Origin: Duncaniella freteri
GTDB lineage: Bacteria > Bacteroidota > Bacteroidia > Bacteroidales > Muribaculaceae
NCBI RefSeq assembly: GCF_004766125.1
Contig: NZ_SJSA01000002.1
Span: forward strand, 62,001-126,000
DNA length: 64,000 bases
Reading direction: 5' to 3'
In this document: in pieces, positions 31,990-45,175 of the stretch
Position numbering within the stretch: position 1 is the first letter of the stretch
Layout of the letters: each line of letters begins with the position of its first letter
Notes under the pieces: generated by a model
The model's database searches: none
What the model was told of the DNA's origin: nothing
Seen by the model: only the letters and a program-made list of their open reading frames with translations
Translations under genes and position numbers: made by a program

Positions 31990-33399
31990 ATGAAAGCGAA
32001 TGGCTATTACAACCATCCACGCTTTCCGATGGAAGCCGGATGCGGATTGATTGAGGAGGATAGCATTGCCTTTACTAGCGATTCCGGTAAAACTGCCGTA
32101 ATTTCTTTCCCTCTGGAGATATTTCCGAAAGCAATCCGCGACATAATAGAGGCTCTTGAGGAGTATGAGAACTATAATGTCGATTTCACTTCGGCTTCAT
32201 TCCTTACAGTATTCGCGGCTGCTATGGGCAACACTTGGTCAGTCCGCTTCATGACAGGATGGGTAAGCCGACCGATAATCTACATGGTGCTTGTCGGCTC
32301 GCCGAGCTGCGGCAAGACTCCGCCATTGCAACAGGCGGTCGCACCGCTTCTTAAACTCGACGGAGAGTATGACATGATCTACTGCAAGGAGATGGAAACC
32401 TACCGCCGATGGGAACGCATGTCGGCAAAGCAGCGTGAGAGACATTCTCTTCCTGAAGAAATGAAGATGCCTAAGCGAAAATGCCTTGTAGTGGTTGATT
32501 CCACCGTAGAGGCTCTTATCGGAGCTTTGCGCGACAATCCGCGCGGAGTGCTGATTTACAAGGATGAGATAGACAGCCTTCTTTCCAATTTCAACCGCTA
32601 CAACGGTTCGGACGAGGGCTACTTTCTCAGTCTGTTCAGCGGTACGCCTTTCAAGTACAGCCGAAAGTCAAACAACGAGCATATCTTCCTCGCCAATCCC
32701 TATTGTTCTATTATTGGCACTACACAGCCCGGTCGTCTGGGCGAACAGTTCGGCGGCAAGCGAATGATGAACGGCTTTTCATCTCGATTCCTGAAAGTCT
32801 ATCCCGAAATTGACAAGATGCCGTCGTGGAACGACACCGCCATGCCTGACAGAGTTCTTGAAGAATGGGAGCGAATTATCCGAAAGGTGGTAGCCGCTAC
32901 TCCTTCAACAGACCAAGAGGGAAAAGCAACCTCAATAGAGCTACTGTTTTCCCAAGAGTCGAAGCTCCGCATAATTCAGTGGAAAGACGAGGTCAATAAC
33001 AAGGTCTATGCTGAAACGGATTCGGATGCTGTCAGGGCGTTGTGCGGCAAACTGGAAACTTATCTCGTCCGCTTCTGCCTGGTCATACAGATTATGCACT
33101 GTATCTGTGGAGAATCGGGCATGGATAAAATTGAACCGGGAACTGCCGAACTCGCCATCAGGCTCACCGAATATTTCAGAAACATGGAGAGCCGGATTGC
33201 ACCGGAGATTGAAACCGGTATCCTTGACAACCGGTTCACCGAGTTACTCGGAAACCTCAGGGATTCGTTCACCACAGCCGAGGCAGTCAGGGAAGCCCTG
33301 CAACTCGGAATCTCGGAATCCTCGGTCAAAAGATTCCTGAGAGACGGAGGCCGAGGATTCGTGAAGAAAAAGTCACACGGTTGCTATCGCAAAATATGA
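31990..33399 (+). CDS. DUF3987 family primase/helicase-like ATPase
   Basis: 469 residues with the DUF3987 (YfjI-type) pattern: Walker A-like VGSPSCGKTPPLQ (about residue 100), a Walker B-like strand KRKCLVVVDST and LIYKDEIDSLL, and YCSIIGTTQPGRL. The C-terminal about 60 residues (FTTAEAVREALQLGISESSVKRFLRD) look like a winged helix; quoted pieces are TAEAVREALQLGI and SVKRFLRD. Proteins of this group accompany mobilization genes of Bacteroidales elements and may support replication after excision. Confidence 0.8.
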   Translation: MKANGYYNHPRFPMEAGCGLIEEDSIAFTSDSGKTAVISFPLEIFPKAIRDIIEALEEYENYNVDFTSASFLTVFAAAMGNTWSVRFMTGWVSRPIIYMVLVGSPSCGKTPPLQQAVAPLLKLDGEYDMIYCKEMETYRRWERMSAKQRERHSLPEEMKMPKRKCLVVVDSTVEALIGALRDNPRGVLIYKDEIDSLLSNFNRYNGSDEGYFLSLFSGTPFKYSRKSNNEHIFLANPYCSIIGTTQPGRLGEQFGGKRMMNGFSSRFLKVYPEIDKMPSWNDTAMPDRVLEEWERIIRKVVAATPSTDQEGKATSIELLFSQESKLRIIQWKDEVNNKVYAETDSDAVRALCGKLETYLVRFCLVIQIMHCICGESGMDKIEPGTAELAIRLTEYFRNMESRIAPEIETGILDNRFTELLGNLRDSFTTAEAVREALQLGISESSVKRFLRDGGRGFVKKKSHGCYRKI

Positions 33400-33431
33400 C
33401 GCTTGAGCTGACACTATGAACTTTTGACATT

Positions 33432-33602
33432 ATGACATTTTCGACCGAGGTCGAACTGACTGAGATACCCCGGTTGCTCACGCCTGATTTGGAGTATAAA
33501 CCTTGCTTTGCAAGATATGCCGATTGTGTCCACAACGGCAATCCCGCCTCCCCCGAGGTGAGGGTCAATCCCGCTCGAAACTCGCAGTCTTTTGTCTTAT
33601 GA
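33432..33602 (+). CDS. Possible 56-residue protein
   Basis: An ATG at 33432 opens a 57-codon frame ending at 33602 with codon use (GAG, GTC, ACC, CCC) much like real genes of element B and unlike the AT-rich DNA around it. The product starts MTFSTEVELTEIP and ends NSQSFVL, with two Cys. No family is recognised. It follows DUF3987 by 32 bp. A conserved small protein of the element is plausible. Confidence 0.4.
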   Translation: MTFSTEVELTEIPRLLTPDLEYKPCFARYADCVHNGNPASPEVRVNPARNSQSFVL

Positions 33603-33959
33603 TACATTGTCCGTGAACGATGATAAACTGAAAAATGGATGATGATAAACTAAAAATATTCGGTTGATAGATTATTCAATATCGCATTTATCATGAACCG
33701 TGATACTTCGGTTTATCGGTCATCGGTACATTGGATAATCGGTACATTTGATAATGTGATAATGAGTCATCGGACAATAAGTTATCGGGTAATGGAGCAT
33801 TGGATAATCAGACAATCGAGTCACTAAGATATTATATCATCAAGGTATCAGTTCATCAAATCATCAAGCAATCATTATACCAAGTCATATAGTCTTCATT
33901 GTATCAGATATTCAATCAACCAATCTATCAAACCATAATATCTTAAAAAGTTAATCTCT
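33603..33959. repeat. AT-rich repeat region upstream of mobC in element B (oriT/iteron candidate)
   Basis: No gene. The DNA is built from short imperfect repeats: CATTGGATAATCRG near 33733 and 33799, GTACATTKGATAAT variants between them, then ATCATCAA/TTCATCAAATCATCAAG and CAATCTATCAAACC towards 33932. The position, immediately before mobC and relaxase, is that of oriT in this type of element. It has no strong GC-rich hairpins like those of element A. Confidence 0.5.
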
Positions 33960-34340
33960 ATGCCCGATAAAAAATCCATTACTATAAAAATACGTGTCGA
34001 TTCGCAGACCCACACAAAAATGCAGTCAGGAGCCGACAGATATACCGACGGTAATCTCAGCGCGTTTGTCCGATGCGCTACTCTCAAATACAACGAGGAG
34101 CCAGTCACTGACCGCGACAATCCCCGTATGATTGCTTTGATCAAGTCCGCTATCAAGCTCATCGAAAGAACCGGCACCAACACCAATCAGGTCGCCAAGC
34201 ACATCAACGAGCAGCAGAAAATGAATCCTTACTCGTTGCGGGCGGCAGATCTTCTTCCCTTCGGTCAGTTTTGTGAGGGTACAGATAAAATCCGACAGAT
34301 GCTGACATACCTCTATAACATGATAATATCAGGAAAATGA
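33960..34340 (+). CDS. MobC-like mobilization accessory protein of element B
   Basis: 126 residues. A basic N-terminal strand (KKSITIKIRVDSQTH) and ribbon-helix-helix-like part (GNLSAFVRCATL) lead to the MobC helix IKLIERTGTNTNQVAKHINEQ, quoted as LIERTGTNTNQVAKHIN. The stop overlaps the relaxase start by ATGA. It should bind the origin of transfer and assist nicking. Confidence 0.8.
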   Translation: MPDKKSITIKIRVDSQTHTKMQSGADRYTDGNLSAFVRCATLKYNEEPVTDRDNPRMIALIKSAIKLIERTGTNTNQVAKHINEQQKMNPYSLRAADLLPFGQFCEGTDKIRQMLTYLYNMIISGK

Positions 34341-36094
34341 TAGTCAAGAAACTCAACGATGTGTCCGGCGGCGGTTTCCCCGGCGCTCGATATAACGAGA
34401 AAAAGATTGCTGATGGCGTGGCAACCCTTATGGCGATGGAGAACGTCAGCGAAGCGTTGCGCCACAATGTAGAGACGCTGCACCGCTTCGGCCTTGATGC
34501 CTCGGCTGAAGTCGAGAGGTATATGAAAGAAAACTCTAAGACCTACGGCAATACAAAGACAACACGTTTCCAGTTCCACGTGTCGGCCTCCGTGAAAGGA
34601 CGCGCCATGTCGCCGGAAGAACTTACCGACTTTGCGCGTGAGCTAATGGTGGGTATGGGATATGCCCGTCAGCCGTATTTTGTTTACGCCCACCATGATA
34701 CCGGCAATAATCATGTGCATATTCTCTCGACGAGAATAAAGCCTAACGGTTATGCCATTTCTGACCATCAGGACAGGCGCAGGCTTAACGAGTGCGCAAA
34801 CCGCATACTTTCTCCTGACATCAAGAAAGATATTGACCGAATTCTCGGCTACGACTACGAAACGGAGGGGCAGTTTGCCAATATTGTAAAGACTCACGGT
34901 TACAAGATAGAGAAATCGCTCGACGGATACCGTCTGTTCAAGTGTGGCGGCAATGCCGGAAATATCGCCATCGGCGACATTCTCAATCGAATCACCAAAA
35001 ACAGCCCGAAGCGCAAAGACCGCGCTACGCAGCTTCGCGCTATAATCCGGAAATACAAGGGCGAGATAGCCGAGGGAAAATGTCAAAATGTCGATAATGT
35101 CAAAGTGTCAAAAGGTAAGAAGCGAAAGCCAGTAAAAGCAAAACTGAATACCGACATCCGCAAAATACTTGACAACCACGGCAAACCGTTGAGCAAGGAG
35201 AACTGCCAGCGCATACAGACTCTTATCGATGTTCTCAAGACAAAGTTTGGTATAGACATCAGTTTTCAGAAGGACAAGGACGGCAGGGTGAGAGGCTACA
35301 GTATAATCGACCATGCCGAAAAGATTGCCTTCGACGGCAGCAAGGTGATGAAACTGTCGGAGCTTATTGATTTCGCCATCAAACCACAAAGGAAACCATC
35401 GCCGCTTGACGTGTACCGCGACCTGTTCACTGTCGAGGTGGGCAAAGACAGCAGAGGGAACTATATGCTCATCAATGTCAAAGACGGCTCGACGTACCGC
35501 AAACCAATCTCACCGAGGCAGTACGCATGGTATAACGGCGTGAAAGACGACGAGCGCGAAGATGTAGGCCTGACAATAGCGGCCACGATGTTCTCCGAGG
35601 AGATACTGACCGAATATCTCATACGCTATCCTATACACAACCATCAAGAGAGGATAAAGGGCATGGCAGTTGTCAAACATAGAAACGGCAACTATTGCCT
35701 CCGCGCTGCCTTGACTGACGGCTATATACCTTTGATCGAATTAACTTCGGAGGAGGAAGCCAAGTTCCGCTCTCTACATGCCGATGAACAAGCAAGACAA
35801 GACTTCCTGATGTCAATAGCCATGCTGCATCTTACTCGAAGGGATGCCGAGGCGGTTAAAGACAGGATAAAACAGAATACCCAATCCAAAGCCGGAGTCC
35901 GTATTTTCCCTTCCCGTCCACAGGACTACTCCCCGGAAATCTCGCAAGTGTTCACATTCAATCTTGCCAACGCACTATCTTCCCTCAATGTCAGTTCCGG
36001 CTCATCCGGCTACAAGCGCGAGCACGAAGTCGGCAACCGTTCCCGCTACGATGACATCGACGACCGTCAGTCCGGCACCCGACTTACAATGTAA
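34337..36094 (+). CDS. Relaxase (MobA/VirD2-like) of element B
   Basis: 585 residues. An N-terminal start KKLNDVSGGGFPGARYNEKKI, a conserved FQFHVSASVKG strand and the metal motif YAHHDTGNNHVHIL (about residue 120) define the relaxase domain. The long C-terminal part is charged and ends with an Asp/Arg/Ser-rich tail. It is only distantly similar to the element A relaxase, so the two elements have different mobilization modules despite sharing integrase type and site. The gene ends about 240 bp before the tRNA-Phe att. Confidence 0.9.
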   Translation: MIVKKLNDVSGGGFPGARYNEKKIADGVATLMAMENVSEALRHNVETLHRFGLDASAEVERYMKENSKTYGNTKTTRFQFHVSASVKGRAMSPEELTDFARELMVGMGYARQPYFVYAHHDTGNNHVHILSTRIKPNGYAISDHQDRRRLNECANRILSPDIKKDIDRILGYDYETEGQFANIVKTHGYKIEKSLDGYRLFKCGGNAGNIAIGDILNRITKNSPKRKDRATQLRAIIRKYKGEIAEGKCQNVDNVKVSKGKKRKPVKAKLNTDIRKILDNHGKPLSKENCQRIQTLIDVLKTKFGIDISFQKDKDGRVRGYSIIDHAEKIAFDGSKVMKLSELIDFAIKPQRKPSPLDVYRDLFTVEVGKDSRGNYMLINVKDGSTYRKPISPRQYAWYNGVKDDEREDVGLTIAATMFSEEILTEYLIRYPIHNHQERIKGMAVVKHRNGNYCLRAALTDGYIPLIELTSEEEAKFRSLHADEQARQDFLMSIAMLHLTRRDAEAVKDRIKQNTQSKAGVRIFPSRPQDYSPEISQVFTFNLANALSSLNVSSGSSGYKREHEVGNRSRYDDIDDRQSGTRLTM

Positions 36095-37439: not shown

Positions 37440-37495
37440 ACCATTGAGTATGTGTCGGCAGAAATTTTTATATTTATTGATGCAATATTTAAGGC

Positions 37496-39070
37496 ATGGA
37501 TATATCTATATATAATATATTGCATAAAATGGATATAGAGGCTATTGTAAAGGATTGCCAGAATGGCAACAGGGACGCATTTGGAACCCTTTATCAGATT
37601 TTCTCACTTCCAATGATGGGGGTGATAGGCTATTATGTCCATAATAAAGACATTGCACAGGATATTCTTCATGATGGGTTTATTGTTGCATTCACTTCGA
37701 TTGTGACACTTAAAGACGCAACCAAAATAGAATCATGGCTAACAACCATAATGAAGAATTTATCTCTCCAATATCTCAGAAAAGAATCAGAACATGCCTC
37801 CATCCAAATATCAGATACGGACATACCGGAGCGATTATCTGAACAAAATTATGAAACGGATTTATCATGGCCGCAGCTTGAATCTATAATACAAAGATTG
37901 CCCGATGGATATAGAACGGTATTCAGGCTGAATGTTCTACAAGGATTGTCCCATAAAGAGATTGCCGAATTGCTCGGCATATCTCATTTGACATCCGCCT
38001 CACAATTGTATCATGCGAAAGTGATGCTCCGTAAGATGATTTCCCAGTACAGGGCGGAGATGGGTGTTACTTCTATACTGATCCTCACAACACTTGTCAT
38101 ATATAATTCGTTGTTCCGACGCAACATTCAAGAAGATGCCATATCATCTGCCGGCAACACATTGCTGGGGCATACTTCTGTCACTGAATCTATAAAGAGC
38201 GATTCTAATGCGATTATGAACGACAACAGGATTGTTGCTTCCACGGTTTCATCCTTGCATAATCATACGCATAATAAACTTGTTGAAGAAAAAGACACAA
38301 TCGAGTTGAAGGTGGATACAAATGTTGTTGATTTTGGTAACAACACACCATCCGACTCCACTGCCAAGACAATTGTAATTCCGGATAATGACCGTCTTAT
38401 AGCTAAAATCAGGCAAAGCCAGTTGATCCAGCCGGCTGACAATGATGGTTGGACATTCTCATTGGCATATTCAGGAACTACCGGACAGAATAACCGGTCA
38501 AAAAACAAAGTCCCTGACATCTCATCTGATGTTACTGATCAAGATATCGAGGAGAATCGGAAAGTAAAGCACTATGTCCCGGTTAGTGTCGGTATCTCTG
38601 TAGGCCGACGGCTTTCTCCTAAATGGAGTATTGAAAGCGGTTTAAGATACACATATCTTAGGACAGATATATTTACGGAGAATAAATATCACCATTCTGA
38701 ATCAACCAATAAAATCCATTATTTAGGTGTCCCTTTGAAATTCAACTACAATATATTCCAGGCTAATAGACTGTCGATCTATGGTCAATCAGGCATTGTT
38801 CTGGATATCCCTGTCAACGGAAAGTCATACACCAGTCATTACAACTACAATGCTGACTCACCCATCTTTGACACCTCCCGCCTCTCGGTGCCTCTGCAAT
38901 GGTCAGTAGAAGGAGGAATAGGTATCGAGTGCCAGTTCACACCGTCAATAAGCATATACGCAGAGCCCTCTATAAATTATTATTTCAGAACAGAGCCAGA
39001 GATAAACACCATACGACAAGACAAGCCGTTTGAGTTCACACTCCCGATCGGTATCAGAATGACGTGGTAA
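37496..39070 (+). CDS. ECF sigma factor fused through a membrane helix to an outer-membrane beta-barrel
   Basis: 524 residues in one open frame. Residues about 12-180 are an ECF sigma factor: region 2 (DIAQDILHDGFIVAF, then IESWLTTIMKNLSLQYLRK) and region 4 (LPDGYRTVFRLNVLQGLSHKEIAELLGIS, quoted as GLSHKEIAELLGIS). A single hydrophobic helix (SILILTTLVIYNSLF, about 196-210) follows directly. A polar Asn/Asp/Ser-rich linker of about 110 residues comes next. Residues about 320-524 are a beta-barrel domain (VSVGISVGRRLSPKWSIESG, LGVPLKFNYN, IYAEPSINYYF) ending in the strand IGIRMTW with a terminal aromatic. Bacteroidota usually encode the sigma factor and a dual-membrane-spanning anti-sigma barrel as two genes; here they are one chain. 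A later ATG at 37529 is a possible start. Confidence 0.8.
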   Translation: MDISIYNILHKMDIEAIVKDCQNGNRDAFGTLYQIFSLPMMGVIGYYVHNKDIAQDILHDGFIVAFTSIVTLKDATKIESWLTTIMKNLSLQYLRKESEHASIQISDTDIPERLSEQNYETDLSWPQLESIIQRLPDGYRTVFRLNVLQGLSHKEIAELLGISHLTSASQLYHAKVMLRKMISQYRAEMGVTSILILTTLVIYNSLFRRNIQEDAISSAGNTLLGHTSVTESIKSDSNAIMNDNRIVASTVSSLHNHTHNKLVEEKDTIELKVDTNVVDFGNNTPSDSTAKTIVIPDNDRLIAKIRQSQLIQPADNDGWTFSLAYSGTTGQNNRSKNKVPDISSDVTDQDIEENRKVKHYVPVSVGISVGRRLSPKWSIESGLRYTYLRTDIFTENKYHHSESTNKIHYLGVPLKFNYNIFQANRLSIYGQSGIVLDIPVNGKSYTSHYNYNADSPIFDTSRLSVPLQWSVEGGIGIECQFTPSISIYAEPSINYYFRTEPEINTIRQDKPFEFTLPIGIRMTW

Positions 39071-39181
39071 AACAAATCTGATAATCAGAGAGGCTCTATA
39101 TTAAGTCATAACAATTCTGTTTCCTCTTCGTGCAATATCGGGTAAGTTTATTCATCTATAAGATGACTAAACTCCAATATA

Positions 39182-40006
39182 ATGCAGAAGAGACATATCG
39201 ACAGACTTCAATATTTCCGGGAACTTGCGCAGACGAGTGAACGGTACTTCATGCCCTATATCAAGGATTTCCTGGATATGGCGGGCCCCATATCCATACT
39301 TGAGGTCGGATGTGGCGATGGCGGAAATCTGCTTCATTTCGCAAAAAGAGGCTATGAGGTTGTCGGAGTTGACATCTCTGCAAACAGGATAAATGACGCA
39401 AAATCATTCTTTGAACAAGAGAATGCAAATGCAAAATTCATTTGTTCCGATATATTAAAACTCAACGGATACAAAAGCTATTTTGATTTGGTTATTTGCC
39501 ATGATGTTATTGAACATATAGGCAATAAACAGGAGATGCTTTCAAGGATAGAATGCTTCTTAAAGCCCAAAGGGCTTCTGTTTATTGGATTTCCAGCATG
39601 GCAAATGCCTTTCGGCGGTCATCAGCAGATTTGCCACAGCAAGCTTCTTTCGATCACACCCTTCTTTCATATGCTCCCTCAGTGTCTCTACAAATATATA
39701 TTGTCATTGGGAGGGGAAAACGTAGAATGCATCAATGAGCTTCTTTCAATAAAGAGCACAAAAATTACAATAGAACTTTTTGAAAAAATAGTTGCTCAGA
39801 CATCATTTGATATAGTAGATCGAAGGCTTTATTTTGTAAATCCCCATTATGAAGTAAAGTTTGGCCTTAAACCTCGACGCCTGCTAAAACCACTCTCCGA
39901 AATGCCATATATACGTAATTTCTTCTCAACAAGCTGTTTTTACATACTTAAAAAATCATCTGCAATGGATTCTGCATCATCGCACACTGGCAGATCTGTG
40001 CAATAA
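39182..40006 (+). CDS. Class I SAM-dependent methyltransferase
   Basis: 274 residues. Motif I is ILEVGCGDGGNLL (about residue 40), followed by VVGVDISANRI, FICSDILKL and the DLVICHDVIEHI segment of motif IV. The C-terminal third is family-specific and may bind the substrate. The fold is of the ubiquinone/polyketide or glycan-modifying Methyltransf_11/23 type; the acceptor is unknown. It follows the sigma-barrel gene by 111 bp on the same strand. Confidence 0.8.
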   Translation: MQKRHIDRLQYFRELAQTSERYFMPYIKDFLDMAGPISILEVGCGDGGNLLHFAKRGYEVVGVDISANRINDAKSFFEQENANAKFICSDILKLNGYKSYFDLVICHDVIEHIGNKQEMLSRIECFLKPKGLLFIGFPAWQMPFGGHQQICHSKLLSITPFFHMLPQCLYKYILSLGGENVECINELLSIKSTKITIELFEKIVAQTSFDIVDRRLYFVNPHYEVKFGLKPRRLLKPLSEMPYIRNFFSTSCFYILKKSSAMDSASSHTGRSVQ

Positions 40007-40036: not shown

Positions 40037-40357
40037 TCAGCTTCGTGGCCGTTTATCAAGTAGTTTTCGGATTGAGTTTATGATGTCCTTCCATGACGCG
40101 CCATCAAGGTCAAAAGACAGGATGTGGTTATAATCCCAGTCGAGTCCTGGTCAGTAGTGGCTTTCAGTGTCGATATTTGAAATTGTAGATGATGTGAATT
40201 CCGGATTTGCCGACAGTGCGTTGTATTTGCGATTTTGGAAATACAGGCCGGCAATAAGAAACGGCACGAGAATCAGTAGCATAATACCAAAAGGCATACG
40301 TGTCTCACCTCGCCGCCCTAAGAAGAACCTATGTATTTTGCTGTCAGATTTCATCAT
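40037..40357 (-). pseudogene. Small membrane-protein gene with an in-frame stop
   Basis: The frame starts at 40357 (MMKSDSKIHRFF...), crosses one hydrophobic helix (MPFGIMLLILVPFLIAGLYF), and meets TGA at 40151-40153 after 68 residues. The same frame then runs 37 more sense codons without interruption (GLDWDYNHILSFDLDGASW, then KDIINSIRKLLDKRPRS) to a stop at 40037. The protein-like extension suggests that the TGA is a nonsense mutation in a 106-residue gene. The start overlaps the pentapeptide gene by 14 bp. Confidence 0.6.
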
Positions 40358-41222
40358 GCTTTTCTTCTATAACGAATCCGAAAAGGATGTTTGTTGTGCT
40401 ATGGTATCTGCTGATATAATCACGAGCAATCTTATAACTTCGGTTGACATACTCGGATATAGTTTCCGCACTATTCCGTTCACAATACCAACTGTCATAT
40501 GTCAGTTTAATCTTCCCATTTTTCACCTTGTACACATCACCGCCAAGAATGGCCTCATTTGAGTGATAATATTCTTCTACTATTCTTAATGCCTCATTTT
40601 TTGAATAGGCAAATCCATCTATGCCAATGGATTCAAGGGAATATTTATCATTTAGTCTATTTGAAAGATCTGATTGTTGTAATCGGGTTGTAGACAAGTC
40701 AATTCCTCCTCGAAAATCGACATCAATAATGTTAGCCTCTGAAAAATCGACATTGTTCAGACGCCCTTTATTAGAAATCCAATAAGACAGTCTGTCATTA
40801 TAATAGTAACTATTATATTTAGGACCACAAAATACACATCCTCGCACATTTCCTATGAATTTACACTCTGAAAACGAAGATGTAATAAATGCTGTATTGA
40901 AGTCACAATCAATGAAAGTGCAGCTGATGAAGTCTGCAATTCCCAAACTCCTTAATTTAATACGTTCAAAGGTACAACCTTTATATATAGATTTTCGCAA
41001 CAAAATCAAAGTCCTTCCACCCATAGAAAAGTGTTGCAGCTTACCGCGTTTGAAAACACAATCAGTAAACCGACAGCCTCTTGCAAGGACATCGGAAAAG
41101 TCACAACTCAGGAATTGGCATCGTTCAAATATCTTTTTAGTCCACCAAACGGCAATGCCACCATTGCAGAATGAGGTGTTCTTAAAAATCTGATTTCTAT
41201 ATCGTTTATCGGTCAGTTTCAT
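40344..41222 (-). CDS. Pentapeptide-repeat-like protein
   Basis: 292 residues. After the opening MKLTDKRYRNQ come repeated five-residue steps with Phe/Leu at the centre and Cys/Ser/Asp neighbours: FERCQFLSCDFSDVL, CRFTDCVFKRG, CTFIDCDFNTAF, SFSECKFIG and NNVDFSEANIIDVDF. Such right-handed helices are protein-protein or DNA-mimic scaffolds; no enzyme is implied. The start overlaps the preceding lipoprotein stop by ATGA. The same lipoprotein paralogue in element B is followed instead by an unrelated gene. Confidence 0.7.
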   Translation of the reverse strand: MKLTDKRYRNQIFKNTSFCNGGIAVWWTKKIFERCQFLSCDFSDVLARGCRFTDCVFKRGKLQHFSMGGRTLILLRKSIYKGCTFERIKLRSLGIADFISCTFIDCDFNTAFITSSFSECKFIGNVRGCVFCGPKYNSYYYNDRLSYWISNKGRLNNVDFSEANIIDVDFRGGIDLSTTRLQQSDLSNRLNDKYSLESIGIDGFAYSKNEALRIVEEYYHSNEAILGGDVYKVKNGKIKLTYDSWYCERNSAETISEYVNRSYKIARDYISRYHSTTNILFGFVIEEKHDEI

Positions 41223-42088
41223 ATCACTTTTCTTTCACCGCTATCTATTTTTATAATCTTGTTTGTCGTCCCGTCAACTTCCATATACAGGATGTCTGTC
41301 ACGTTATCATCGTTGTGGTAAGGCTTGAATTTAACCTCGAATGAATACTTTTCCAACGGAAGTCCTGTAAAACCGTCTTGAGGTTCTATTTGAATTGTTT
41401 TATAGGCGTGCCGAAAGTCGGCATCATCCGGAACAATCGGGAGTAGTGCGGCGTATAACTCTTCTGCAAGCTCTTTGGAGCAATACTGTTCATACAGTCT
41501 TTTCAAGTCTGATGATGATGTGCCGGCCGCTCTTTCGTTCAGATATAGAGCCATAAAGTCGGCAATATATGAATTCCCATCAACACCCATCTCATACTCA
41601 AGAACTATAATATTTGATGTGCCATCATTAAGAATCTGATACAACATGTTCCAACCGTCGTCCGTGTCGGGAAGGAAGCAGCCAAATGATAAGTAGATGG
41701 CCGAATCCGATACCCAAAAAACTTCACCTCCCCACTGCATGATATATTCACCTTCGGTGCCGACCACATCTTTCGTCCGTATTTCCTTGTCGGAGTACAC
41801 TATATTTCGGTCATAGGATATGGTCAGAAAGACGGAGGAATCTTTCACTTCCCAGTCATGTCGCCCAACTACAATATCATTGGAATCTTTAGTCGCTTTG
41901 ATAGTCCAGTGCCCGATAACGGTATCTTCGATTATCCGGCCTCTGATAACATCAGCGATATTTTCAGTTACAGAATCTTCTATAGTTTGCAGCTGTGTGA
42001 TGTCACCGGATCTATTTCCTCCGTTGCATGCAATAATTAAAGAAGATGCAATAATCGTTAGGAACGTAATACCAATCAAATTTTTCAT
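41219..42088 (-). CDS. Lipoprotein, paralogue of 27880-28749
   Basis: 289 residues, lipobox SLIIACNGG. From about residue 45 to the end it follows the element B lipoprotein closely (IGHWTIKATKDSND, YDRNIVYSDKEIRTKD, GCFLPDTDDGWNMLYQIL), with the most divergence in the signal peptide. Function unknown. It is coupled downstream by ATGA and lies 4 bp after the 42093 gene. The duplication between a mobile element and the adjacent island is notable. Confidence 0.65.
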   Translation of the reverse strand: MKNLIGITFLTIIASSLIIACNGGNRSGDITQLQTIEDSVTENIADVIRGRIIEDTVIGHWTIKATKDSNDIVVGRHDWEVKDSSVFLTISYDRNIVYSDKEIRTKDVVGTEGEYIMQWGGEVFWVSDSAIYLSFGCFLPDTDDGWNMLYQILNDGTSNIIVLEYEMGVDGNSYIADFMALYLNERAAGTSSSDLKRLYEQYCSKELAEELYAALLPIVPDDADFRHAYKTIQIEPQDGFTGLPLEKYSFEVKFKPYHNDDNVTDILYMEVDGTTNKIIKIDSGERKVI

Positions 42089-42092
42089 AACA

Positions 42093-43166
42093 TCAATCTT
42101 TTGACAACCATAATTCCGTCATTCTCTTATAGTATGCCCGCATTGCCGGATTGTCGAGTTTGGCGATAGCTGCATCAATGTTTTTGCGGGATTGTGGGGT
42201 ATATGTGTAGTAGAATCCAAGAGGCATCGTCAGGGACAGAGATTTATAGTCACGATTTTCGTAAATATATCTCAAAACCTTTTCCGGCTGTGGCATGAAT
42301 ACGTAATTAAAAAAGTTGAATACGAATGATTCTGCCGTAGCTGCATCAACACTATTTCCCAGACTATCCCATTGTTCAAGCACGGTTTCATCAGAACAAG
42401 GATAGCGGGTAAGTGTCTGTATCTTTCTAACCTGATCCCATTCCTCTTTGCTGTCTGAGCCGCTCCATAGTCTGAATACGCCTTCCTCATACGTTTCAGC
42501 CTCAGGCGAAGTTATTACTATTTTGCCGTTCCTCTCTATGTTACAACACATTGAAACCGTTTCTGAGTATGTGGTTGTGTCCTCGTCGTTATTGATGTTA
42601 TGTTCTATTTCTTTGTATTCATAGTTGTATGTAAATTCATGGTCTGTGATAAAATATATCAAAGTATGCTCGGCACATATTAACTCTGTTGAGTCTGACG
42701 GATTATCTAATAAATCCGACTTATCCCAACAGTTTCCTGCATACATTGCGTCAATAAAAGTTCCATCGAAATTGTATGTCGCAATATACACATCTTCAAT
42801 ATCGCTGAACAGATATTTATATTGGCATAATACTACATTATCATTTATTTGCCTGACTGATACAAGATATACCGATGCGGTATCGGACAGGTTAAAGTCT
42901 GACGTGATTACACCTTTGAGCAACCCCCCTTGCTCTTTTGTGGTAAGGAGATAATCATTGTCAGATGGAGCCGGCAAAGAATCATCTTTCGCAATTAGTG
43001 ATTCTTCTTCAATGCCGAGTTTCCTTAGGAATTCAAATGATTTGCTATCGTATATCTCTGTAATAGAATCATGCTTATTGTCATTTGATGCCGATGTCGT
43101 GCCTTTGCCCTTGCACGATATACACAAAGTCGATAATGCTATTATGATCAAAAGTAATTTTTTCAT
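42093..43166 (-). CDS. Lipoprotein of unknown function
   Basis: 357 residues, lipobox LCISCKGK. The mature part begins with a Ser/Asn/Asp-rich linker, then globular sequence with acidic stretches (HNINNDEDTTTYSE). The C-terminal part (FFNYVFMPQPEKVLRYIYEN) is helical. No family recognised. It overlaps the next upstream membrane gene by 4 bp (ATGA). Confidence 0.6.
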   Translation of the reverse strand: MKKLLLIIIALSTLCISCKGKGTTSASNDNKHDSITEIYDSKSFEFLRKLGIEEESLIAKDDSLPAPSDNDYLLTTKEQGGLLKGVITSDFNLSDTASVYLVSVRQINDNVVLCQYKYLFSDIEDVYIATYNFDGTFIDAMYAGNCWDKSDLLDNPSDSTELICAEHTLIYFITDHEFTYNYEYKEIEHNINNDEDTTTYSETVSMCCNIERNGKIVITSPEAETYEEGVFRLWSGSDSKEEWDQVRKIQTLTRYPCSDETVLEQWDSLGNSVDAATAESFVFNFFNYVFMPQPEKVLRYIYENRDYKSLSLTMPLGFYYTYTPQSRKNIDAAIAKLDNPAMRAYYKRMTELWLSKD

Positions 43167-43384
43167 TCCTTGCCTCCTTCCAATATAAACCCATTATTTA
43201 CAGCCCACATAAACATAAATACTCCACATAGACTGACTATACTTCCAATAATGAATACAACAGCACTTATTTTATCAGATTTGGAAATCTCGATAGACAG
43301 AATTTGATTTAGTCGATTGTCTTTAAGGTGTTTTAGATAAAACATTCCTCCTATTAAACAACATATAAGGATATTGTAAAGCAT
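43163..43384 (-). CDS. Small membrane protein
   Basis: 73 residues, hydrophobic helices at about 2-16 and 40-65 flanking a basic segment (KHLKDNRLNQ). It overlaps both neighbours by one or four bases and is part of the tight minus-strand run. Function unknown. Confidence 0.5.
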   Translation of the reverse strand: MLYNILICCLIGGMFYLKHLKDNRLNQILSIEISKSDKISAVVFIIGSIVSLCGVFMFMWAVNNGFILEGGKE

Positions 43385-43581
43385 CAGTTTTTGAAGTCTA
43401 ATATTAAGTGCTTACCAATTATGTTTCCCCAATAGAATGAAACGCCTATTGAGATGGCAGTTAAGTATATGTAAATTGTAAACAATATCATGCCCATAGA
43501 CATAGCCACAGGCATATCTCCATTTCCTATACGTTCTTGGAAACGGCAACAGCAGACAAATATTTTCTTTAAGAACTTCAT
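43384..43581 (-). CDS. Small membrane protein
   Basis: 65 residues with one strong hydrophobic region (about 25-52) after a basic N-terminus with CCCRFQER. It is coupled to its neighbours by one- and four-base overlaps. Function unknown. Confidence 0.5.
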   Translation of the reverse strand: MKFLKKIFVCCCRFQERIGNGDMPVAMSMGMILFTIYIYLTAISIGVSFYWGNIIGKHLILDFKN

Positions 43582-44159
43582 TGCCTACATCCTTTCAATT
43601 TCATCAATTCAAGTTTTGGCACAAGATCTACAGACTCAATCTTAGCTATGTTTTTAGCAACGGGGATAATGGTCAGTTCCACATTATAGCCATTTCGCAA
43701 ATCATCAATATTGGAATAATCCTTTAGATTGAAAGCACGCTCAAAAGATTTACCATTGTATTTGAAATATATCTCGTCAATTCGGGCTGTTGAATATCCG
43801 CTTAATGGTGTTTCAATCACAATTTTATCTTTTCGGTCCGCAATAATATTTAGAATAACAAAACCTATCAATGACAATGTGAGGCTCGTTAAAGTAATGC
43901 CGCTTATACATCGACTTAACTTCGATTTTTTAGTACCAAGGAAACTGCTTATTGTCAAAAAGCATACAATCCATGTAGCCCAATCATAAATCTGGAGAGT
44001 AATGAGAAAACCTCTCGACAGCCATATCTCTATTCCAAACAATCCAATAATCGCCCAAAAGCAATAATTAATTTTTCGAGTGCGAACAGCCTTATATATC
44101 CCCATGCAAACGGCATAAAGGATAACAGCGATAATTATGTATCTTAAAGCATCTTCCAT
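43578..44159 (-). CDS. Membrane protein of unknown function
   Basis: 193 residues from the ATG at 44159; a TTG-started version at 44207 would overlap the end of the split upstream gene and is less likely. Four hydrophobic segments occupy the first about 110 residues, and a soluble domain follows (IDEIYFKYNGKSFERAF). It lies 10 bp after the true stop of the IS-split gene. Confidence 0.55.
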   Translation of the reverse strand: MEDALRYIIIAVILYAVCMGIYKAVRTRKINYCFWAIIGLFGIEIWLSRGFLITLQIYDWATWIVCFLTISSFLGTKKSKLSRCISGITLTSLTLSLIGFVILNIIADRKDKIVIETPLSGYSTARIDEIYFKYNGKSFERAFNLKDYSNIDDLRNGYNVELTIIPVAKNIAKIESVDLVPKLELMKLKGCRQ

Positions 44160-44306
44160 GGTAATATCGTCATTGATTATGTTCGGTAATTCCTGCGAGT
44201 TTTTCAAGCCCCCAATATAGTAATAGCAGTATTAGCTGTGCAGTTGGAAGAACAACCGCGAAAGCAAACCAGCCCCAGCCATCAGTATCCTCATGCGTCA
44301 ATCTAA

Positions 44307-45175
44307 GAAACTGTTTAAATTTGATTCAATAAAATTTTTATGGCAGCCAAATCAATCATTTCTTCAGCGACCTCGGTTGATTCTTCATAATTGCGTGAAA
44401 GGCGACGGAACCAGTCAAGCCATGAGAAAGTTCTCTCGACCACCCATCTGAGAGGTTTCGGTATGAATCCCTTAGTCCCGTTTGGAGTATTGGAAACCTC
44501 AAGGCTGATTGCAAAATCTTTTTCAATATCTTTAGCAATCTCCCCTCGGTAACCCCGGTCAACAAGAACCTTTTCAAGCCGTTCCCACTCTCTGTCTGCT
44601 GCATTACACAATGGGTGAGCCTGATGGGAATCATGAACCGATGCACTGCATACTGTCCGGGCAAGAATAAAGCCATTGCGGTCAACCACTATGTTACGTT
44701 TGATGCCCTTGACTTTCTTGTTTGCGTCAAATCCATTGTCACTCTTACGGTTGCCCCATTTAACGCTTTGTGCGTCCAATGCTCCTACAGAGGGACTTTC
44801 TGATTGATTTCGTTTCTTCCTCACCTTTCGTACAAGTTTGTTGAGCAAATGTTCGATTCTACCTTCTTTGGACCACTTTCGGAAGTAATAGTACACCAGT
44901 TGCCACTTGGGATAATCGTGCGGAAGCATCCTCCACTGACATCCTGTGACCAGTAGGTATAATACCGCTTCGAATAGGCTCCGTAGTGAATTTTTACGTT
45001 TGCGACAATCATTTTCGAAGAATACTTTGTTTATATAAGACCATTGACCCTCGGTCAAAAGTGTCTGATAGAGATTGATTCTATGCATGTGAACAATGTT
45101 TTTCTCCTTCAACACTTTGGCTGAGGGTTTGTTATGCCCTATAACATTTTTTCAATTCTAATTTTAAACAGTTTC
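44307..45175 (-). mobile_element. IS5-family element, 869 bp, TAA target duplication
   Basis: Terminal repeats begin GAAACTGTTTAAA at both ends (with ATT/TTA variation further in), and TAA flanks the element at 44304-44306 and 45176-45178. One transposase ORF fills it. The short target duplication, size and transposase type agree with IS5-family members. Confidence 0.88.
44315..45115 (-). CDS. IS5-family transposase
   Basis: 266 residues. An N-terminal DUF4096-like part (SLFEAVLYLLVTGCQWRMLPHDYP) is followed by the DDE core: first Asp in GALDAQSVKWG, second in VLVDRGYRGE, and Glu in RWVVERTFSWL. All three catalytic positions are present and the frame is intact, so the element is potentially active. 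A second in-frame ATG at 45088 (MHRINLYQ) is also possible as start. Confidence 0.92.
   Translation of the reverse strand: MLKEKNIVHMHRINLYQTLLTEGQWSYINKVFFENDCRKRKNSLRSLFEAVLYLLVTGCQWRMLPHDYPKWQLVYYYFRKWSKEGRIEHLLNKLVRKVRKKRNQSESPSVGALDAQSVKWGNRKSDNGFDANKKVKGIKRNIVVDRNGFILARTVCSASVHDSHQAHPLCNAADREWERLEKVLVDRGYRGEIAKDIEKDFAISLEVSNTPNGTKGFIPKPLRWVVERTFSWLDWFRRLSRNYEESTEVAEEMIDLAAIKILLNQI

Follow-up and report, generated by a model that had tools for sequence, protein, structure and literature searches.

An ECF sigma factor joined in one open reading frame to an inner-membrane helix and a predicted outer-membrane barrel: a fusion family of Bacteroidales with a promoter-like motif pair

The window, that is the whole stretch of 64,000 nucleotides of Duncaniella freteri DNA, was analysed around one long gene. 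A single open reading frame at this locus joins an ECF sigma factor, an inner-membrane helix, a disordered tether and an OmpA-like barrel. The features are given below, with residues numbered from the ATG at 37496.

37481..37509, + strand: P1, a promoter-like motif predicted to be autoregulatory, with a TGCAAT-type -35 and a TATCTAT -10, at the position and spacing of the P1 of relatives
37529..39070, + strand: fused sigma-TM-barrel gene from its probable start (513 aa; the mechanical ORF runs from 37496)
37616..37789, + strand: sigma region 2 (residues 41-98)
37874..38026, + strand: sigma region 4 (residues 127-177)
38066..38116, + strand: predicted inner-membrane helix (about residues 191-207)
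38129..38440, + strand: predicted disordered periplasmic tether (residues 212-315, pLDDT under 50)
38450..39064, + strand: predicted OmpA-like outer-membrane beta-barrel (residues 319-523)
39131..39159, + strand: P2, a second promoter-like motif with the TGCAAT variant and spacing of P1, 60 nt past the stop codon and 22 nt before the next start
39182..40006, + strand: cargo gene following P2, a SAM-dependent methyltransferase (274 aa)

The profile matches and the structure model agreed on the order of sigma regions 2 and 4, one helix, a polar linker and a barrel, as an earlier note had read it from the letters alone; the barrel, for which that note had proposed structure prediction, was modelled at the C-terminal part. 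Regions 2 and 4 are of ECF type, with no region 3 match reported, and the fold check of the sigma part supported an ECF sigma factor, covering mainly region 2. In the model a single helix spans residues 164-214, the last sigma4 helix and the membrane span being continuous, with a block pLDDT of 79-85 up to residue 200; AlphaFold may over-extend this helix. The last sigma4 helix of ECF factors is the -35 recognition helix. Among the fusions the 12 residues before the helix hold on average 3.8 lysines or arginines and the 12 after it 2.2, an excess in line with a cytoplasmic N-terminus; the membrane topology of the fused protein is a predicted one. The aromatic final barrel residue noticed earlier was found again across the family, the C-terminal residue being tryptophan in 50 of 59 fusions. 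The ATG at 37496 lies inside P1, between its -35 and -10 elements, and many homologues have their start where the window has the ATG at 37529; for these two reasons the true start is probably the latter, giving a protein of 513 aa.

The homologue search with the window protein gave 560 homologues among 8000 scored candidates, and two further searches with distant members gave 444 and 2030. Both the sigma and the barrel profiles were matched by 120, 120 and 116 of the best 120 homologues per search. Genome surveys covered 198 genomes of the window's own family, 295 of the order, and sets of 101, 14, 123 and 99 genomes, and the best loci were fetched. The search for the same fusion in other Bacteroidales, suggested in the earlier note, verified 59 fused ORFs with the window copy counted, all differing in their last 150 residues. 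They were distributed as follows:

f1 (the window's family): 29 in 28 genomes
f5: 9 in 6 genomes
f59: 16 in 15 genomes
f105: 1
named records: 4 (three Muribaculaceae, one Bacteroidales)

These counts are minimum numbers from the part of the matches that was fetched, and some rows are near-copies; one row (L123) is cut short in the barrel. Named relatives among the matches listed were Parabacteroides goldsteinii, Parabacteroides sp., Bacteroides sp. and Phocaeicola sp. The family profile was matched somewhere in 279 of the 295 genomes of the order, often by the sigma part alone. The fused architecture is real and widespread. Single open frames of 591-610 aa in G301, G453, G305 and G486 were resolved by ORF calling into split pairs and were excluded from the fused count. 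Some fused copies have the sigma and barrel parts in separate ORFs (L053/L162 in G255, L165 in G541 and L153 in G593), and beside the broken copy of G255 the adjoining ORF resembles a transposase by eye.

As a comparison set, 54 split sigma/Dma-like pairs were retained. One of them lies in the window's own genome at C1:1023894-1025725 (L015), where a sigma factor of 223 aa and a partner of 431 aa overlap by 4 nt. In all 54 split partners the membrane helix begins at residue 44-80, with an N-terminal segment before it. In all 59 fusions the helix start lies between -4 and +6 residues from the end of the sigma profile, the stretch searched for it running from 5 residues ahead of that end up to 20 before the barrel. 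The N-terminal segments of half of the split set were built into an anti-sigma profile, which matched 27/27 held-out split Dma proteins and 0/59 fusions, window copy included. The lack of matches and the lack of room before the helix together argue for a fusion without an anti-sigma domain. A domain hidden within the fusion was considered and rejected with the same held-out-validated profile. Judged by profile and helix position, the fusion is not a sum of sigma, anti-sigma and barrel; it has the sigma factor where the split partners have their anti-sigma domain. A separate ECF21 sigma gene was sought beside the window fusion, and the flanks were found to hold the methyltransferase and a hydrophobic ORF without a Pfam match.

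The median identity to the window protein among 119 homologues was 0.57 for the sigma part, 0.51 for the barrel and 0.19 for the tether, and the standard deviation of tether length was 2.6 aa (n=119). Near-constant length without constant sequence is what would be expected of a spacer crossing the periplasm. A cut site was sought in the tether, and no invariant column was seen among 24 relatives.

The origin of the fusion was analysed with a quick tree of 113 sigma domains, in which the 59 fused rows all fell on one side of a branch with an SH-aLRT support of 100. In the barrel tree one change also suffices, with a branch support of 42. Both trees were built without an outgroup or other ECF groups, and they do not give the direction of change. 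One fusion event for the whole family is the simplest reading of these trees. Many separate fusions are contradicted by the sigma tree; the barrel tree alone, with its support of 42, would be insufficient to reject them.

The regions upstream of the fused genes carry the element TGCAGTCTTTT followed by CATCTAT or a relative of it. The element was matched at 9 or more of 11 positions in 44/59 fusions as against 42/1180 shuffles, the other 15 fusions having no good match, and TGCARTNT was present within 90 nt upstream in 43/59. The upstream regions of 12/54 split das genes also reach 9 or 10 of 11, so the element is not unique to the fusions. Downstream sites were scored with a profile trained on the P1 motifs alone, the cut being the 99% shuffle score; 36/59 downstream regions exceeded it, all 36 sites starting 2-70 nt past the stop codon, and 23/59 fusions gave no scored site. 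The controls gave 2/52 downstream of split dma genes and 3/59 in coding windows. After thinning for relatedness, P1 was retained in 35/48 and P2 in 29/48 loci. By regular expression, 36/59 loci had a match both upstream and downstream. Related TGCAGTATTTTT elements were seen upstream of split das genes, for example L060, L109-L111 and L055, and possibly represent the ancestral form of the promoter of the fused family.

The two motifs of a locus resemble one another at recognition positions. In 29 representatives the same-locus agreement of P1 and P2 at 14 variable -35/-10 positions was 0.687 compared with 0.565 on shuffling, a value reached in 0/5000 shuffles, and shared descent may contribute to it. 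The spacer agreement of the same representatives was 0.338 compared with 0.323, reached in 1445/5000 shuffles. This absence of covariation in the spacer argues for one sigma factor reading both P1 and P2. A strict form of the motif was sought in 18 chosen genomes and gave 20 matches in 12 of them, of which 17 lay within about 300 nt of a fused gene; the reversed control pattern gave 1 match in the same genomes. Of the remaining matches, G551:C19 and G002:C48 are away from any fused gene found and G497:C34 precedes a short sigma-like ORF. No strict match was found in 6 of the 18 genomes, among them G144, which holds the window's nearest relative. Going by these motifs, the relatives in the family appear to switch on mainly themselves and the adjoining gene.

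The motifs of the window itself are weaker than those of the family. The window P1 matches TGCAGTCTTTT at 8/11 positions, a level reached by 281/1180 shuffles, and scored 9.2 (6th within the 64 kb) when the window was excluded from the profile. An apparent first place for P1 (12.5 against 12.4) was discarded, as that profile had been trained on P1 itself. The window P2 scored 5.0, under the threshold of 7.9, and 3.9 (rank 29 within the 64 kb) with the window excluded. P2 was first spotted visually. As the pattern TGCARTNT-N15-ATCTAT was composed from P1 and P2 themselves, their exact match to it is not independent. Within the genome of 3.55 Mb the pattern occurs exactly three times, two of the occurrences being P1 and P2, a result that speaks for the rarity of the sequence and not for a successful prediction. 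The third (C2:671317) lies inside an ORF and was taken as a chance match and not as a promoter. The TGCAAT variant occurs in 2/43 family P1 motifs, and the P1 of the nearest relative (L022 of G144) carries it. The window P1 and P2 are best described as weakly scoring variants, the case for which rests on their place, exact spacing and shared variant, and we infer that the sigma domain makes use of them. The autoregulated promoter guessed at in the earlier note is supported for the family by the motif upstream of the fused genes, and is less firm for the window copy.

The cargo was taken as the longest ORF starting within 450 nt downstream, a definition under which some are probably shadow ORFs, and its family was checked on one member per cluster. 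A downstream ORF was present in 55/59 loci. The clusters were:

methyltransferases: 10 of the 55 loci, window included
radical SAM/SPASM enzymes: 7
CotH-domain proteins with lipoprotein-like starts: 7
small lipoprotein-like proteins: 4
pairs or singles: for example an acyltransferase and a serpin

Eight of the other nine members of the methyltransferase cluster share 48-54% identity with the window protein, those from f59 and f105 among them, and one shares 24%. The serpin-domain ORF, with a lipoprotein-like start, is the cargo of one fused locus (L050:200-1420). In two Muribaculaceae records (L011 and L012) the fusion is followed in order by a radical SAM enzyme, an oxidoreductase-like protein (by eye), a CotH protein and a small lipoprotein-like protein. 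A protease was sought among six other neighbour clusters, each present in at least 3 of 23 loci, and none was recognised, two of the six being profile-scanned. The unit to which the window's fused gene belongs may include the methyltransferase gene that follows it. The earlier note mentioned neither this nor the lack of an anti-sigma domain nor the probable displacement of the start codon.

The architecture is not new. In excerpts of PMC13088901, Dma3 (BT_2778) of Bacteroides thetaiotaomicron is described as a Dma-family protein with its own N-terminal sigma domain, and this corrects the earlier note, in which the fusion was presented as unlike the known Dma proteins. The window protein is like Dma3 in having an N-terminal sigma domain in the same polypeptide, a likeness of description and not of compared sequences; the named BT_2778 sequence was not among the matches listed from three homologue searches (best 120 each). 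When the Dma definition given in those excerpts was applied to the window protein, the single helix, the long disordered tether and the C-terminal barrel were found, and the anti-sigma domain and the adjoining separate sigma gene were absent. By description the window protein is accordingly a Dma3-type fusion; lacking an anti-sigma domain, it is not classed as a Dma anti-sigma factor. The literature searched gave no description of the promoter pair or of the cargo, and none of the single origin or of the loss of the anti-sigma domain; the 2024 founding PNAS paper (doi 10.1073/pnas.2321910121) lies outside this scope, and its account of Dma3 is known through PMC13088901.

The pairs Dma1/Das1 and Dma2/Das2, with ECF21 sigma factors, and the barrel-bearing pair of P. 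vulgatus share with the fusion a helix, a long tether, a C-terminal barrel and a related sigma factor. They differ in being two genes; in the 54 split Dma relatives examined the helix is preceded by 43 to 79 residues that include an anti-sigma segment, which no fusion has. ECF41 and ECF42 are sigma factors with C-terminal extensions and share with the fusion a regulation built into the sigma polypeptide. None of these extended sigma factors is known to carry an outer-membrane barrel. ToxR/CadC-type regulators resemble the fusion in joining a DNA-binding domain to an inner-membrane helix, but they are not sigma factors and have no outer-membrane anchor.

Functional background comes from these split systems. 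According to the excerpts of PMC13088901, a sigma factor becomes free and dma3 is induced in the absence of Dma1 or Dma2, and the bt_2778-2779 locus is listed as upregulated in two B. thetaiotaomicron mutants, which speaks for the model preferred below. The induction of dma3 suggests that other sigma factors may use the promoters of fused genes. The same source reports that dma1 or dma2 mutants remained hypervesiculating after dma3 was deleted, which counts against that model. The P. vulgatus pair M0N98_03760-61 reacts to an antimicrobial protein that damages the envelope, with a 33-fold rise of the sigma gene, and the active sigma factor leads to longer O-antigen (excerpts of PMC9308784). BT2778 also stands as a sigma-70 family factor in an iron-response table in the part of PMC10434189 consulted. 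By analogy, the fused protein should sense trouble in the outer membrane or in barrel assembly and alter the envelope through its cargo.

On the whole we consider it rather probable that the fusion is a one-protein switch spanning the envelope, in which a tethered sigma factor is freed on outer-membrane disturbance and induces itself and one neighbour gene. The ECF sigma domain would lie in the cytoplasm with its last sigma4 helix running on into the inner-membrane helix, and the disordered tether of near-constant length would span the periplasm to the OmpA-like barrel in the outer membrane. While tethered, the sigma domain would be unable to engage RNA polymerase productively; with the anti-sigma domain gone, the inhibition would come from the tethering itself or from some further partner. 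The inducing signal, by analogy with the split relatives, would be a disturbance of the outer membrane or of barrel assembly, upon which the protein would be cut or released, proteolysis being the likeliest step. The freed sigma factor would read P1, the promoter of its own gene, giving positive feedback, and P2, which shares the -35/-10 elements of P1 and would drive the next gene. In the window the methyltransferase would then modify an envelope component. At the level of sequence, the architecture, the loss of the anti-sigma domain and the conservation of tether length are apparent, as are the motif pair and recurring cargo for the family.

A bolder form of the idea is offered tentatively, as one we would sooner doubt than believe. 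It holds that a sigma factor whose recognition helix begins its membrane anchor, with a tether of fixed length, acts only on the two flanking promoters, possibly in cis from the membrane, and that the promoter pair and the fused gene together make up a portable cassette for sensing the envelope, whose cargo can be exchanged (methyltransferase, radical-SAM enzyme, CotH lipoprotein, acyltransferase, serpin).

The main rival to the release model is that the sigma factor is active while membrane-bound, recruiting RNA polymerase in cis only to the promoters flanking its own gene, as ToxR/CadC-type membrane-bound activators provide precedent for action from the membrane. The near-confinement of the strict motif to the own locus (17/20 matches) would fit a regulator that does not diffuse, and neither a cut site nor a protease partner was recognised. 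A small regulon is, however, possible without tethering, and the strict pattern would miss weaker sites elsewhere; and since the sigma4 helix is modelled as continuous with the membrane helix, DNA and RNA polymerase would be packed tightly against the bilayer. We regard this rival as unlikely. Less likely still is that free sigma factors from the split Das/Dma pairs are what mainly drives P1 and P2, the fused sigma factor being a minor or self-limiting user. Upregulation of dma3 in B. thetaiotaomicron without dma1 or dma2 (excerpts of PMC13088901) and the 12/54 split das genes with an upstream element at 9 or 10 of 11 speak for it, but P1 and P2 covary within a locus at recognition positions and not in the spacer, TGCAAT is shared by the window P1 and P2 and the P1 of the nearest relative against 2/43 P1 motifs overall, and the region upstream of the split das gene in the same genome scores 7/11, which is the shuffle level. 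That the sigma domain is inactive, a mere cytoplasmic anchor or decoy for the barrel protein, is very hard to credit, as conservation is higher in the sigma part (median identity 0.57) than in the tether (0.19) and the promoter-like motifs covary within loci. A frameshift or misassembly merging a sigma gene with a barrel gene, for which the split pair overlapping by 4 nt in the same genome might speak, is refuted by the family, with 59 fused ORFs and 120/120 best-listed homologues matching both domains, and by that pair being a separate locus with its own anti-sigma segment; the absence of a frameshift sign claimed in the earlier note is upheld on the same grounds.

The fusion bears on the way in which signals pass from the outer membrane to RNA polymerase in Bacteroidota. 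In the fused form this pathway consists of a single protein with a predicted pair of promoters and, in many cases, a single cargo gene, and its release, tether length and barrel sensing can be tested separately by reporter. The cassette with swappable cargo, if true, would be a natural sensor module in gut commensals.

The surroundings of the locus were also inspected. At 40344-45115, downstream on the opposite strand, lie a pentapeptide/Imm40-domain protein and an IS4/5-type transposase, together with further ORFs without a Pfam family above the cut-off. Just upstream, at 31990-36094, are a DUF3987 protein, a NikA-like mobilisation protein (under the Pfam cut-off) and a MobA/VirD2-type relaxase. 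The fused locus may lie on or beside a mobilisable element.
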